Below are positions 46,698 to 53,470 of a DNA stretch of 53,470 nt, piece after piece. Each line of letters begins with the position of its first letter. The stretch's first letter is position 1. The stretch spans positions 1 through 53,470 of the forward strand of contig JHWW01000018.1 in the NCBI GenBank assembly GCA_000621985.1, in the 5' to 3' direction. A program made the position numbers and the translations under genes. Origin of the DNA: Lachnospiraceae bacterium V9D3004. Lineage in GTDB: Bacteria > Bacillota > Clostridia > Lachnospirales > Lachnospiraceae. The notes beneath the pieces are model-generated. The model worked only from the letters and a program-made list of their open reading frames with translations, made no database searches and was not told the DNA's origin.

Positions 46698-47330
46698 TTA
46701 CTTTGTTCCGAATATTCTGTCGCCGGCATCACCGAGTCCCGGAACGATATAGCCGTGATCGTTAAGTCTTTCGTCAAGTTCACCTACGAAAATATCTACA
46801 TCCGGATGATCTTTCTGCATTCTTTCGATTCCTTCGGGTGCAGCAATTATACACATGAAATGAATGTGTTTGCATCCTTTTTCCTTGAGCATCTTGACTG
46901 CAGCGGAAGAAGAACCGCCGGTTGCGAGCATCGGGTCAACCACGAATACTTCTCTCTCATCACAGTCGGATGGAAGTTTGCAGTAGTATTCAACAGGTTC
47001 TAAAGTTTCGGGGTCACGGTACAGACCGATGTGACCGATCTTTGCAGCGGGAATAAGCTGAAGCACTCCGTCAACCATGCCGAGTCCTGCGCGAAGGATA
47101 GGGATAACGGCAAGCTTTCTTCCTTTTAATTCTTTTGATACGGTCTTACATATCGGAGTTTCAATCTCGACATCTCTAAGGGGAAGATTGCGGGTAGCTT
47201 CGTAACATATGAGAGAAGCAATCTCGCTTACAGATTGTCTGAAATCTTTTGTTCCTGTCTCCACTCTCCTTATGATGCCTATCTTATGCTTGATCAGCGG
47301 ATGATCCATAATGTGTACATTATCATTCAT
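46698..47330 (-). CDS. upp: Uracil phosphoribosyltransferase
   Basis: The 210-residue protein makes UMP from uracil and PRPP (pyrimidine salvage). Motifs seen: [11 protein letters not shown], the PRPP loop [12 protein letters not shown], and the uracil-binding end [18 protein letters not shown]. Length is normal. It follows the uracil permease gene by 58 bases on the same strand, so uptake and salvage are linked. Confidence 0.97.
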
Positions 47331-47388
47331 ATTGGTAACAACCTCCTCATTTTTTTTATTGTAATGGTTTTATAACTGTTACATGGTC

Positions 47389-48747
47389 TTATGATTTTGA
47401 TTCGGCAGGTCTCAGTATCGCATTGAGAATGATTCCTGCAAGAACTCCTACGGAAAGACCGGTAAGACTTATAGTGATGTTGCCGATATCAAATGATATC
47501 GAACCGGCTGCCGAGTAAGAGATTCCGATTGAAAGTACAAGGATCAGTGCAGCGATTATTACATTGCGGGTATCTTTGAAATCGACATTATTTTCAACGA
47601 TATTCCTGACACCGACTGCAGATATCATTCCATACAGTACAAGTGATACACCACCGATGGTTGCGGTTGGCATGGCTCCTATTATCGCAGCAAATTTTGG
47701 ACAGAAGGAAAGCAGTACCGCAATATAAGCTGCAAGTCTTATTACAAACGGATCGAATACTTTTGTGAGTGTTAGAACGCCGGTATTCTCGCCGTATGTT
47801 GTGTTGGCCGGAGCTCCGAACAGAGAAGCAAGGATTGTTGCAAGACCGTCGCCGAGAAGTGTCTTATGAAGTCCGGGGTCTGCGATATAATCCTTTCCTA
47901 CTGTGGATGATATGGCTGATATATCTCCGATATGCTCTGCCATTGTTGCAATAGCGATAGGCATGATCGTAATTATTGAAGTTGTAATAAGTGAAGAATC
48001 GGGGTTCGAGAATATTGAAAATACTGTGTTGTCCCATTCAAACGGAAGTCCGATCCAGGGAGCGTCGATGATAGCCTGAATACTGTCTTTTGAGAAAAGA
48101 GCGAATGAACTGTTACCTGCTATCGTGATCATGTTGTCAGTTTCCAAGCCGAGGCATATCGTCAAGATGATGGCAAGCAATGAAGAACCGAGTACACCGA
48201 GTATGATGGGAACTATCTTTATAAGTCCCTTGCCCCATGTAGTACATATAATAACTATGGCTATTGCAACTATGGCAATGATCCAGTTTGATGAACAATT
48301 GTTGATCGCGCTTGCCGATAATGTAAGACCTATTGCTATGATGACCGGTCCCGTTACTATCGGTGGAAAGAATCGCATGATCCTGTTTCGGCCGTAGGAT
48401 TTGATAAGAGCAGCGAGTATCAGATAGAGAGCACCCGCACAGGCTACACCGAGACATGCATATGGAAGAAGTTCTTTTTCACCGTTTGGAGCGATTGCGC
48501 CGTAACCGGCAAGGAATGCGAATGATGAACCGAGGAATGCCGGTACGCGACAGTTTGATAAGAAATGAAACAGAAGAGTTCCGAGACCGGCGAATAATAA
48601 AGTAGAAGAAACACTCAGTCCCGTCAGAGCGGGAACAAGAACAGTTGCGCCGAACATGGCGAACAGGTGCTGCAGCCCGAGAACAAAGATCTTAGGGTAT
48701 CCAAGTTCCCTGGCATTGTATATTGGTTCGTTGTTTTTAGGAATCAT
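47389..48747 (-). CDS. uraA: Uracil/xanthine permease (NCS2 family)
   Basis: This 452-residue membrane protein has about 14 helices and NCS2 motifs: LGLQHLFAMFGATVLVPALTG near the N-terminus in two pieces, AEHIGDISAISS, and the substrate-loop text LFGAPANTTYGENTGVL, which is typical for uracil permeases of the UraA/PyrP type. It carries uracil with protons. The upp gene downstream supports uracil as substrate. AAGGAGGC stands before the ATG at 48747; an upstream extension to 48792 has no site. No clear PyrR attenuator is seen in the 100 bases upstream. Confidence 0.93.
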   Translation of the reverse strand: MIPKNNEPIYNARELGYPKIFVLGLQHLFAMFGATVLVPALTGLSVSSTLLFAGLGTLLFHFLSNCRVPAFLGSSFAFLAGYGAIAPNGEKELLPYACLGVACAGALYLILAALIKSYGRNRIMRFFPPIVTGPVIIAIGLTLSASAINNCSSNWIIAIVAIAIVIICTTWGKGLIKIVPIILGVLGSSLLAIILTICLGLETDNMITIAGNSSFALFSKDSIQAIIDAPWIGLPFEWDNTVFSIFSNPDSSLITTSIITIMPIAIATMAEHIGDISAISSTVGKDYIADPGLHKTLLGDGLATILASLFGAPANTTYGENTGVLTLTKVFDPFVIRLAAYIAVLLSFCPKFAAIIGAMPTATIGGVSLVLYGMISAVGVRNIVENNVDFKDTRNVIIAALILVLSIGISYSAAGSISFDIGNITISLTGLSVGVLAGIILNAILRPAESKS

Positions 48748-48843
48748 TTTCTGCCTCCTTAAAGTTGTATTTATGGGTAATTCCAAATACATTGTAACAC
48801 GTTGCGGTGAAAAATGACATAAACTCTATATAAAAATTCCCTA

Positions 48844-48872
48844 TTGACAAATAAAAATCTCGTCATTATAAT
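48844..48872 (+). promoter_or_regulatory. Promoter of the T-box leader and oxidoreductase operon
   Basis: TTGACA at 48844-48849 and TATAAT at 48867-48872 with a 17-base spacer, a near-perfect sigma-A promoter. Transcription should start near 48879, about 20 bases before the T-box stem I. Confidence 0.8.
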
Positions 48873-48896: not shown

Positions 48897-49146
48897 CGAT
48901 AAAGACTGTGACGGAGACAGTAAGCTTGTTCCAAAAGTTTCAGAGAGCCGCGATTGCTGGAAAGCGGTACGAGTAGGAACCTGACGAATATCCCTCCTGA
49001 GTTGCAGTGTCGAAAGAGTATCAAGTAGACGCTGACGGATTCCCGCCGTGATACGGGACGCATATGATAGTATGTCGTAGATGGTTGGTTTATAAGGGAA
49101 CTGTATATTCAGCTCTTACCGTTTACGGGCGGTAGGAGCTTTTTTG
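48897..49146 (+). promoter_or_regulatory. T-box riboswitch leader with atypical antiterminator bulge
   Basis: The leader shows T-box parts in order: the distal stem I text CAGAGAGCCGCG, then TTGCTGGAAAGCGG; a specifier region GAATATCCCTCCTGAG (48986-49001); AGTAGACGCTGACGG with CCCGCCGTGATA, the usual stem II/III region; and a terminator at 49111-49146 (AGCTCTTACCG with CGGTAGGAGCT and six T). A competing antiterminator can be drawn: ATGG (49081-49084) with CCGT (49119-49122), and TAAGGG (49093-49098) with CTCTTA (49113-49118), leaving a bulge TTGGTTTA. The bulge holds TGGT, able to pair with an uncharged tRNA end NCCA with A73, but lacks the usual ACC of the T-box. Specifier ATC (Ile, 48990-48992) is favoured; TAT (Tyr) is possible. 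Confidence 0.85.
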
Positions 49147-49243: not shown

Positions 49244-49819
49244 ATGGAAAAAACTGTTGAGATCAGATGGCATGGAAGAGGAGGCCAGGGAGCCAAGACT
49301 GCAGCGCTGCTTTTGGCTGATGTGTCCTTCAAAGCCGGTAAGTATGTTCAGGGCTTCCCGGAGTACGGTCCTGAGAGAATGGGTGCGCCTATCACGGCTT
49401 ATAACCGTATAAGCGATAACAAAATTACGGTGCATTCCAACATATATGATCCGGATTATGTTGTAGTTGTTGACGAAGGACTGCTTGACAGTATAGATGT
49501 GACGGCAGGACTGAGTCCCGAAGGAGCGATAGTGATCAATTCCGCCAAGAAGCCGGAAGAGCTTGCATCCAAGCTTCGCGGCTATACCGGAAAGATATAT
49601 ACGGTAGACGCAAGGAAGATATCCGTAGAAGCACTTGGAAAATATTTTCCGAATTCTCCGATGCTTGCTGCCATCGTAGCAGTGTCCGGTGTAATGGACA
49701 GAGATCAGTTCCTTAATGAGATGGAAGCGTCCTACAGACACAAGTTCAGTAAGAAACCGGAAGTGATCGAAGGTAATATGAATGCACTTCGAATGACATT
49801 TGAGGAGGTTGCAGTATGA
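49244..49819 (+). CDS. 2-oxoacid:ferredoxin oxidoreductase, gamma subunit
   Basis: The 191-residue protein begins EIRWHGRGGQGAKTAALLLA, the family hallmark, and has FPEYGPERMGAP, as in the gamma subunits (PorC/VorC) of four-subunit 2-oxoacid:ferredoxin oxidoreductases. It forms part of the complex that oxidises 2-oxoacids to acyl-CoA with reduction of ferredoxin, or runs in reverse. AAAGGAAG precedes the ATG. It is the first gene behind the T-box leader and overlaps the next by 4 bases (ATGA). Confidence 0.93.
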   Translation: MEKTVEIRWHGRGGQGAKTAALLLADVSFKAGKYVQGFPEYGPERMGAPITAYNRISDNKITVHSNIYDPDYVVVVDEGLLDSIDVTAGLSPEGAIVINSAKKPEELASKLRGYTGKIYTVDARKISVEALGKYFPNSPMLAAIVAVSGVMDRDQFLNEMEASYRHKFSKKPEVIEGNMNALRMTFEEVAV

Positions 49820-50106
49820 TAAGCGATAAAATAAATGAGATGTCCCCATGGGAGGACCTTACTGAAGGTAATAAATTATTCGGCAGTGCCACATCCAGGG
49901 AATTCAAAACAGGTGAATGGAGAACCCAGACGCCGGTACATGATAAGGAAGCCTGCAAAGAATGTTATCTGTGCGTACCGGTATGCCCGGACATGAGCAT
50001 ACTTGTTATGGAAGATGAGAGTGTGGAATTTGATATGGAGCATTGCAAAGGTTGCGGGATATGCGCAAAGGTATGTCCTTTCAATGCAATTAAAATGGAG
50101 GTGTAA
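49816..50106 (+). CDS. 2-oxoacid:ferredoxin oxidoreductase, delta (2[4Fe-4S]) subunit
   Basis: The 96-residue protein carries two ferredoxin motifs: CKECYLCVPVCP and CKGCGICAKVCPFNAI, which bind two [4Fe-4S] clusters. It passes electrons from the catalytic beta subunit to ferredoxin. The first 50 residues are a non-cluster extension typical of PorD/VorD. It overlaps the gamma gene by ATGA and lies 3 bases before the alpha gene. Confidence 0.94.
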   Translation: MISDKINEMSPWEDLTEGNKLFGSATSREFKTGEWRTQTPVHDKEACKECYLCVPVCPDMSILVMEDESVEFDMEHCKGCGICAKVCPFNAIKMEV

Positions 50107-50109
50107 CAG

Positions 50110-51306
50110 ATGTCAATAAGAGAGAGATTATCAGGAAATGAAGCTGTTGCATACGCTATAAAGCAGATCAATCCGGATGTTATGCCGGCATTTCCAATCA
50201 CACCGTCTACCGAGATACCTCAGTATGTATCTACGTATATTGCAAATGGTGAGATGGATACCGAATTCATACATGTTGAAAGCGAGCACAGTTCAATGAG
50301 TGCTGCAATAGGCGCTTCGGCAGCGGGAGCAAGAACACTTACCGCAACATCATCGTGCGGACTTGCTCTTATGTGGGAAGAATTATATGTTGCGGCTTCC
50401 GACAGACTTCCGGTTGTACTTGCGCTTGTTAACAGAGCTTTATCCGGACCGATCAATATTAATGCGGATCATTCCGACAGTATGGGCGCAAGAGATGCGG
50501 GCTGGATTCAGATATATGCCGAATCCAATCAGGAGGCATATGATAACTTCATTCAGGCATATCCTATAGCAGAGAATCCCGACGTAATGCTTCCGGTAAT
50601 GATATGCCAGGACGGATTCATTACAAGTCACGGTGTTGAGAATATCGAACTTGAGGCTGACGAAGATGTTAAGAAGTTTGTCGGTGAATATGATCCGGAG
50701 CATTTCTTATTGAATGAAAAAGAGCCGATGGCAATAGGACCGTATGCGGTGTCCAATTATTATATGGAATCCAAACGCGGACAGCGACAGGCTATGTTAA
50801 ATGCTAAGAAAGTCATTCTTGAGGTCGCAGAGCGTTTTGAGAAAATGACAGGAAGAAAGTATGGTTTCTTCGAAGAATACAGACTTGATGATGCGGACTA
50901 TGCGATCGTTATCATCGGATCGGCAGCAGGAACAGCAAAAGCTGCTATTGAAGAGATAAGGAAGACTACCGGCAAAAAAGTCGGACTGCTTAAGATAAGA
51001 GTATTCCGTCCGTTCCCTGAAGAAGAGATCGCGGAGGCTCTTAAGAATGTAAAAGCAGTTGCGGTACTTGACCGTTCCGAGATGTTCTCGGGAACCGGCG
51101 GACCTCTCGGTGCCGAAGTTACTGCCGGATTATACAGGGCAGGTTCTAAGGCAGAAGTTGTTAATTACATATACGGTCTCGGAGGTCGTGACATAACAGT
51201 TGAAGATTTTGAGAGAGTATATGATGAGCTTGAGAACATGGCAGCTACTCATGAAGTTAAAGATAATTACAGATATATCGGATTAAGGGAAAGAGGTGAC
51301 AGGTAA
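50110..51306 (+). CDS. 2-oxoacid:ferredoxin oxidoreductase, alpha subunit
   Basis: The 398-residue protein begins with the transketolase-like pyrimidine-binding domain (about 5-190), with SGNEAVAYAIKQINPDV, AFPITPSTEIPQYV and TATSSCGLALMWEELYVAA, then a domain II (about 260-385) with KVGLLKIRVFRPFPEEEI. This fits PorA/VorA. Alpha and beta together hold thiamine diphosphate. The exact 2-oxoacid is not readable from these motifs; the T-box points toward branched-chain acids. The stop codon overlaps the beta start (TAATG). Confidence 0.94.
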   Translation: MSIRERLSGNEAVAYAIKQINPDVMPAFPITPSTEIPQYVSTYIANGEMDTEFIHVESEHSSMSAAIGASAAGARTLTATSSCGLALMWEELYVAASDRLPVVLALVNRALSGPININADHSDSMGARDAGWIQIYAESNQEAYDNFIQAYPIAENPDVMLPVMICQDGFITSHGVENIELEADEDVKKFVGEYDPEHFLLNEKEPMAIGPYAVSNYYMESKRGQRQAMLNAKKVILEVAERFEKMTGRKYGFFEEYRLDDADYAIVIIGSAAGTAKAAIEEIRKTTGKKVGLLKIRVFRPFPEEEIAEALKNVKAVAVLDRSEMFSGTGGPLGAEVTAGLYRAGSKAEVVNYIYGLGGRDITVEDFERVYDELENMAATHEVKDNYRYIGLRERGDR

Positions 51307-52259
51307 TGGATAACAATCTTAATAAGCCATATAATTTTAAAGAAGAAATGACTACAAGAAAAGACAGATTCGTTCCGGGTCACAGAATGTGTGCAGGCTG
51401 CGGCGGAGCAGTTGCAGTCCGTTCCGTACTTCGTTCCCTTCATGACGGAGACCGTGCCGTTATAGGCAACGCAACAAGCTGTCTTGAAGTATCTTCATAT
51501 ATGTATCCGTACAGTGCCTATGAGGACAGTTATATACATAACGCATTCGAGAATGCAGGTGCAACAATGTCAGGTGTAGAGACTGCTTATAATGTGCTTA
51601 AGAAAAAAGGAAAGATCGACGACACATACAAGTTCATTACTTTCGGTGGAGACGGTGGAACTTACGATATCGGATTCCAGTCGCTCTCGGGAGCAATGGA
51701 GAGAGGACATGATTTTGTGTATGTATGCTATGACAACGGCGCATACATGAACACCGGAACACAGCGTTCATCTGCAACACCGAGATTTGCCGACACAACA
51801 ACAACACCTGCCGGCAAGGTTAAGAACGGAAAGGTTCAGGTTAGAAAAGATCTTGCTTCCATAATGGCAGCGCACAATATTCCATACGTAGGACAGACAA
51901 CCTTCCTCGGTAATTTCAAGGATGTATATACCAAGGCCGAGAAAGCCATATACACACCGGGACCGGCATTCCTCAACATAATGTCGCCATGTCCGAGAGG
52001 CTGGGGCTACAACACTCCGGATATGATGGAGATTTGTAAACTTGCAGTAGACACATGCTATTGGCCGATGTTCGAAGTTGTTGAAGGAACATGGACGCTT
52101 ACATACGAGCCCAAGAAGAAACTTCCGATCGAAGACTTCCTCCGTCCACAACGCAGATTCAAGCATCTGTTCAAACCGGGCAACGAATACCTCATCGAAG
52201 AATTCCAGAAAGAAGTCGACAAAAACTGGAAAGAAATCCAGGTCAAGTGTAATATGTAA
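51306..52259 (+). CDS. 2-oxoacid:ferredoxin oxidoreductase, beta subunit
   Basis: The 317-residue protein has the thiamine diphosphate domain with HRMCAGCGGAVAVRSVLRS, NATSCLEVSS, FGGDGGTYDIGFQSLSGAME (GDG...N motif) and CYDNGAYMNTGTQRSS. Cysteines near CAGCGG and in MSPCPRGW probably hold the internal cluster, as in PorB/VorB. Length is that of four-subunit pyruvate or ketoisovalerate enzymes. It is the last gene of the operon; no strong T-run terminator follows, and the next structure is the GC-rich foldback at 52342-52437. Confidence 0.95.
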   Translation: MDNNLNKPYNFKEEMTTRKDRFVPGHRMCAGCGGAVAVRSVLRSLHDGDRAVIGNATSCLEVSSYMYPYSAYEDSYIHNAFENAGATMSGVETAYNVLKKKGKIDDTYKFITFGGDGGTYDIGFQSLSGAMERGHDFVYVCYDNGAYMNTGTQRSSATPRFADTTTTPAGKVKNGKVQVRKDLASIMAAHNIPYVGQTTFLGNFKDVYTKAEKAIYTPGPAFLNIMSPCPRGWGYNTPDMMEICKLAVDTCYWPMFEVVEGTWTLTYEPKKKLPIEDFLRPQRRFKHLFKPGNEYLIEEFQKEVDKNWKEIQVKCNM

Positions 52260-52984: not shown

Positions 52985-53012
52985 TACATACATACATACA
53001 TACATACATACA
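52985..53012. repeat. Tetranucleotide microsatellite (TACA)7
   Basis: Seven perfect TACA units in a row at 52985-53012. The count was made directly from the sequence. Such tracts can change length by slippage. Confidence 0.95.
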
Positions 53013-53049
53013 GGCCTGAATAAGCCATTTTTGACATGCGTAAATAAAG

Positions 53050-53112: not shown

Positions 53113-53470
53113 GCCGCCGCACACTTGTGACTTTAGTCGTGAGCTAGGCGGCATTTTTCTTGTAAAAAGTATAATCATATGGTATAATTTAAATATGGAT
53201 AAAACAGTGTATTTCTCAATGCCTAAAGATGTTACGCATGGTCGAGGATATATATACTCTTTACAGTATCATATCGTATGGGTTACAAAGTATAGAAAAC
53301 CCATATTTGTAGGTGAAATAGAGAAGGATGTCAGAAATTATCTTCTTGAAACACTTAAATCTTTAGATATGTTACCTATTGCAATGGAGATAATGCCGGA
53401 TCATATACATCTTCTTGTGGACTGTAAACCACAGCTGCGTTTGTCGGACGCAATTAAAATATTAAAGGGT
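53113..53470 (+). mobile_element. IS200/IS605-type insertion element, left end (partial)
   Basis: An imperfect hairpin at 53113-53152 (GCCGCC with GGCGGC, inner GCACAC/GTGAGC and GAC-TTTA-GTC) stands 43 bases before a Y1-type transposase gene. Subterminal hairpins of this kind mark the ends of IS200/IS605 elements, which move as single strands without inverted terminal repeats. The right end lies beyond the window, so the true borders are not known. Confidence 0.7.
53195..53470 (+). CDS. IS200/IS605 family transposase TnpA (Y1), N-terminal part
   Basis: The first 92 codons are present and the gene runs off the window. It reads YSLQYHIVWVTKYRKPIFVG, the typical N-terminus of Y1 (HUH) transposases, and MPDHIHLLVDCKP with the metal-binding HUH pair His70-Ile71-His72. 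The catalytic tyrosine should follow outside the window. The start at ATG 53195 agrees with the usual N-terminus, although it stands before a short KTVYFSMPKDVTHGRGYIY extension. Confidence 0.92.
   Translation, partial: MDKTVYFSMPKDVTHGRGYIYSLQYHIVWVTKYRKPIFVGEIEKDVRNYLLETLKSLDMLPIAMEIMPDHIHLLVDCKPQLRLSDAIKILKG

Follow-up and report, generated by a model that had tools for sequence, protein, structure and literature searches.

The window analysed here is a stretch of 53,470 bp from the gut bacterium Lachnospiraceae bacterium V9D3004 (GenBank GCA_000621985.1, contig JHWW01000018.1, positions 1-53,470, forward strand). It carries a porCDAB-type 2-oxoacid:ferredoxin oxidoreductase operon on the + strand, with genes for a porC-type gamma subunit (49244–49819; TIGR02175 and PF01558 over cut-off), a porD-type ferredoxin subunit (49816–50106; TIGR02179 over cut-off), a porA-type alpha subunit (50110–51306; PF01855 over cut-off, best NCBIfam PorA model below its cut-off) and a porB-type beta subunit (51306–52259; PF02775 over cut-off, best NCBIfam PorB model below its cut-off). 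Beyond the operon, a short run of CATA repeats (52985–53015) precedes an open frame at 53195, which we take to resemble an IS200-type transposase. On the other side, positions 46698–48792 hold a divergent permease gene (PF00860, over cut-off), and the gene beside it presumably resembles that for uracil phosphoribosyltransferase.

The operon is preceded by a T-box leader (48897–49146; all leader features are on the + strand). The Rfam model RF00230 matches 48899–49065 (E 4.8e-13; 65.6 bits, below the gathering score of 93), with stem I, the AUC specifier, stem II and stem IIA/B distinct and the antiterminator left unplaced. A promoter-like TTGACA-17-TATAAT (48844–48872) has 12/12 consensus letters. 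The RF00230 alignment places stem I at approximately 48905–49003, including the specifier loop and the distal AGAGA (at 48942, distal loop) and GNTG-type motifs, and stem II at approximately 49005–49034; the specifier ATC (Ile) is at 48990–48992. The leader, its isoleucine specifier and the oxidoreductase operon downstream had all been proposed in an initial annotation made from this sequence, and all three are borne out. In stem IIA/B (49034–49058), ACGG (49035–49038) pairs with CCGT (49046–49049) and TCCC (49041–49044) with GGGA (49055–49058); this element is paired in 12/12 sequences, with changes on both sides in 2/4 pseudoknot pairs. Stem III (GCATATGATAGTATGT; 49060–49075) contains TAGT at 49068–49071, where 37/39 relatives of the set defined below have TGGT. 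The intrinsic terminator (49111–49145) consists of a stem-loop (49111–49140) and a T run, and overlaps the 3′ strands of both antiterminator helices. A whole-genome search identified five T-boxes, and the other four (L001–L004) have recognisable bulges.

The initial annotation had built the antiterminator from ATGG/CCGT and TAAGGG/CTCTTA. These pairs exist and exclude the terminator stem-loop, so an antiterminator can be drawn as proposed, but a register shifted by one base fits better (-19.4 kcal/mol versus -19.0 kcal/mol). It comprises an 11-bp helix A1 (5′ strand TCGTAGATGGT, 49075–49085; 3′ strand ACCGTTTACGG, 49118–49128; 10 of 11 pairs supported by leader alignments), a bulge UGGUUUAU flush on A1 (TGGTTTAT; 49086–49093) and, from sequence and energy, a 5-bp helix A2 (AAGGG, 49094–49098; CTCTT, 49113–49117). 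The extra A1 pair, T49085-A49118, puts TGGT (49086–49089) directly against A1, so that in the shifted register a UGGN adjoins A1 at the 5′ edge of the bulge, with ACC absent. Antiterminator and terminator share a strand and are mutually exclusive; with stems III and IIA/B common to both, the 13-pair terminator (-25.8 kcal/mol) is lower in energy than A1 plus A2 by about 6 kcal/mol, making the off state the default. A flush 6-bp A2 with TGG in a 5–10-nt bulge arose in 249/200,000 shuffles of the 28-nt spacer, in a test picked post hoc. The usual TGGNACC is indeed missing, as had been remarked, but this is ordinary here, since just 13/130 family leaders with a bulge have UGGNACC. The 10-mer TGGTTTATAA, following AGG, recurs in 11/130 of those leaders and in 0/39 other leaders of the bulge-less set, the window being its sole carrier among the 40. 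This recurrence makes TGGT the likely acceptor contact of the window copy, in agreement with the earlier proposal; the 3′ end of tRNA-Ile is ACCA. Two search patterns for tRNA-Ile gave no match in the organism's own genome or those of its genus.

Within the genus, 10 genomes were searched, the organism's own included; all have porC, and 11 distinct leaders were obtained, two of them from one genome. The bulge of the window is present in 1/11 of these leaders and in 0/10 of the others; TTGGTTTA, found in the window only, was accordingly rejected as a conserved bulge, and with it the suggestion that it represents a conserved variant of por operon leaders. GTAGATGG and CCGTTTAC are kept throughout, save in L015, where the helix requires a bulge and a mismatch. 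UGGU is found in stem III of 9 of the other 10 genus leaders; in the window it lies in the bulge instead. Normal TGGTACC T-boxes precede more distant por operons. Such homologues had been named as a sign that the present copy is decayed; they do exist at that distance, but in nearer relatives A1 covaries and does not decay. The initial annotation was built on one sequence, from which the UGGU that related leaders carry in stem III could not be seen.

In the family as a whole, a model of the 3′ domain (R1) matched 136/397 genomes, and its hits and the porC loci were then read, revealing two kinds of leader: those with a GTGG bulge, and those from which this bulge is absent but in which the A1 helix is mostly there. 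Removal of 8 duplicates and 4 unclear cases (L074, coding; L292, L325 and L335) from 182 rows left 40 bulge-less leaders and 130 with a bulge. Seven rows scored as canonical by script, on a GTGG within A1 or the terminator, were reassigned by eye to the bulge-less set, and the window is counted among the 40 because its TGG has T, not G, before it. On later reading, L292 and L335 have a GTGG bulge further down. L325 resembles a T-box leader: its specifier region contains UGG and its stem III UGGU, and the 150 bases read show no GTGG bulge. The 40 leaders (window included) comprise 24 before por, 14 before ileS and two (L113 and L150) before a nucleoside-phosphorylase-like gene, which is a surprising gene to find behind an isoleucine T-box; the L113 protein has weak NCBIfam matches, none over cut-off, and L150 was judged by likeness to L113. 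Some of the 130 precede genes other than ileS and por, e.g. trp genes. ATC was found in the same context in 38/40 bulge-less leaders by script and in L113 by eye, L008 being cut by a contig end; as all specifiers are AUC, the fourth base of UGGU is seen against a single discriminator base.

A GTGG-type bulge adjoining A1 was found in 0/39 other leaders of the set (pattern search, corrected by eye). The helix itself persists: in an alignment of 34 leaders, window included, 96.2% of A1 cells are paired and 6/10 pairs have changed on both sides, in an alignment built with a model of the same structure and so leaning towards it. For the whole 19-pair structure, 0/500 shuffles, which ignore kinship, equalled it in pairing or in covariation, and sliding the structure lowered pairing from 97.4% to 27–55%. 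L057, L150, L155, L166, L189 and L302 lie outside the covariation set. The A1 3′ strand is not evident in L057 and L189; L057, which precedes por, has the stem III motif but not CCGTTTAC, and its terminator region is seemingly rearranged. RF00230 matches 20/20 tested leaders of the set, all below the gathering threshold. A UGGN hidden in the A1 spacer was also sought: between the A1 strands, TGG is found in 15/34 aligned leaders and TGGT in 3/34 (the window, L115 and L127), with no TGG in 19/34 and no TGGT in 31/34. In L115 and L127, 4 and 9 nt separate TGGT from A1, so a bulge contact there is conceivable. UGGUAUGU would be an ordinary bulge if CGCAUAUGN paired with the segment past the 3′ strand of A1; this pairing was rejected, as L006, L010, L046, L111 and L117, inspected by eye, gave no consistent helix. 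Three T-box loci also contain a Clostridiales-1 RNA (RF01699): L003 (2882–3050), L115 (1603–1772) and L166 (520–691).

Absence of the bulge is accompanied by UGGU in stem III. An almost invariant stem III, CGCAUAUGNUGGUAUGYCG, is present in 37/39 bulge-less relatives versus 2/130 leaders with a bulge; with the window included, CGCATATGNTGGTATGYCG is found in 37/40 versus 2/130, and a looser rule requiring just UGGU in stem III gives 37/40 versus 36/130. The exceptions among the 40 are the window, L015 (a por leader) and L128 (an ileS leader), all three with UAGU in stem III; L015 and L128 have neither a GTGG bulge nor a clear UGGU elsewhere, and are possibly decayed or make their contact at another place. 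Outside the family, the motif, with at most one mismatch, occurs beside a normal bulge in L340 and L342–L346, suggesting that it may predate loss of the bulge. These leaders, together with the 36/130 under the looser rule, indicate that the motif is not exclusive to the bulge-less state.

R1 was built from leaders with such a stem III and could favour it, and a sample chosen through ileS served as a check. This gene was found in 123/130 genomes at 125 places, 123 of which were used (one cut by a contig start and one weak match were dropped); 36 lie near a model hit and 87 do not, and 80/87 were read, over about 480 bases upstream each. GTGG is lacking at 18/80, 17 of them with no RF00230 match and one cut short and canonical once extended. 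The 62/80 with GTGG include 51 that also pass a loose stem I rule (script); the remaining 11 comprise three T-boxes with GTGG and eight places with no match. The ileS-chosen sample thus yielded no leader lacking both the bulge and the stem III motif, 51 of its places resting on a loose script. In a PorC tree the bulge-less UGGU state appears in several clades, with 5 changes, at least 4 of them forced by supported branches, so that this state has been gained or lost more than once. Independent origins were also sought on an IleS tree and not accepted there: the best tree has 9 changes, with only 3 supported pairs, which is not significant, and L163 is mislabelled on it.

The best explanation, to which we assign a probability of roughly one half, is a Lachnospiraceae lineage of isoleucine T-boxes in which the acceptor-binding UGGU can move between the bulge and the stem III loop, a movement that we infer from sequence alone. 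Uncharged tRNA-Ile would switch on the porCDAB-type operon through a transcriptional T-box. Most members of the lineage are without this bulge, retain A1 and have UGGU within the stem III loop; there, UGGU most likely assumes the contact with the acceptor end. UGGU is seemingly required at one of the two places, the bulge in the window and stem III in most of its relatives. The AUC specifier also precedes ileS in relatives, which fits, and the por operon would presumably serve isoleucine supply, with tRNA charging as the probable signal. More tentatively, a branch of tRNA-Ile T-boxes without a bulge may use UGGU of the stem III loop to grip the acceptor end, with a 10-bp antiterminator helix alongside, the site being swappable, as the window would exemplify. 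If true, this would constitute a second architecture for RNA sensing of tRNA charging. By energy calculation, about 1.8 kcal/mol is needed to free UGGU from stem III, against about -2.5 from UGGU:ACCA pairing, with UAGU giving +1.4; a stem III loop gripping ACCA is predicted to be energetically possible, which is no proof that it does so. By analogy with solved T-boxes, a UGGU in a hairpin loop would lack their stacking on A1, and this counts against relocation.

Conservation of the stem III loop for some other reason, such as a tertiary contact with stems I–II or A1, or with a protein, is unlikely but is the most serious competitor; binding of tRNA-Ile would then be sensed and its 3′ end would not. 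Stem III shows no variation at its paired positions in 34/34 aligned leaders, a constancy beyond what CCA pairing needs, and stem III flanks are known to pack on the discriminator, according to the part of a review cited here (PMC7583486). The loop letters argue for the acceptor contact instead: positions 36 and 37 (UG of UGGU) are fixed, at 2.0 and 1.62 bits versus 0.81 and 0.53 in leaders with a bulge, but the free position 35 is as free as in those leaders (0.46 versus 0.51 bits), the 40 leaders being compared here with the 111/130 that have a loop of equal length. The fixed letters appear to be those where CCA pairing needs them, which is more telling than the motif counts. Conservation for another purpose also sits poorly with the window, whose stem III has UAGU and whose bulge carries UGGU instead.

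Less probable still is that the window copy is a decaying leader that lost its stem III UGGU and has TTGGTTTA by chance. Its bulge occurs in no other genus leader read, and L015 and L128 are likewise without the stem III UGGU and with no obvious replacement, as such decay would predict; however, the bulge is flush on A1, A2 is full, 10 letters are common to a recurring family bulge, and the promoter, specifier, pseudoknot and terminator of the window appear intact. It is very improbable that the leader in the window is an ordinary T-box whose bulge is a variant and that its relatives have simply lost regulation: bulges do vary here, as the scarcity of UGGNACC attests, but in the relatives A1 covaries and stem III varies less than it does where a bulge is present, the opposite of decay.

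A relocatable UGGU in this isoleucine T-box lineage would depart from the usual account of T-boxes. In the part of the review cited (PMC7583486), UGGN invariably adjoins A1 in all known T-boxes; natural leaders without the bulge, and with the other parts kept, would offer a direct test of that model. A search of T-box literature by title or abstract start, mostly outside subscription journals, found none on UGGU in stem III. The TBDB paper (PMC7778990), in the portion available, mentions 48 sequences with a predicted specifier in which the canonical UGGN was not found, and these share with the present leaders a predicted specifier and a missing canonical UGGN; that portion describes no class and mentions no stem III substitute. 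Other Lachnospiraceae T-boxes, with bulges such as UGGUUUAUAA or UGGUAUAACG (e.g. L158, L173, L179 and L137), have a similar stem III and A1 before the bulge but differ in lying mostly before ileS and not por, in their shorter A1 and in a stem III that is free to vary. The window resembles RF00230 in stem I, AUC specifier, stem II, IIA/B pseudoknot, stem III and the opposition of antiterminator and terminator, with UGGN adjoining A1. It differs in its sub-gathering score, shared by the 20 tested leaders, which annotation relying on that threshold would miss; in its bulge, UGGUUUAU and not UGGNACC; and in having 39 relatives without a GTGG-type bulge, 37 of them with UGGU in stem III. This distribution suggests that UGGU can occupy one or the other of two sites in the leader, unlike in the usual description of a T-box.
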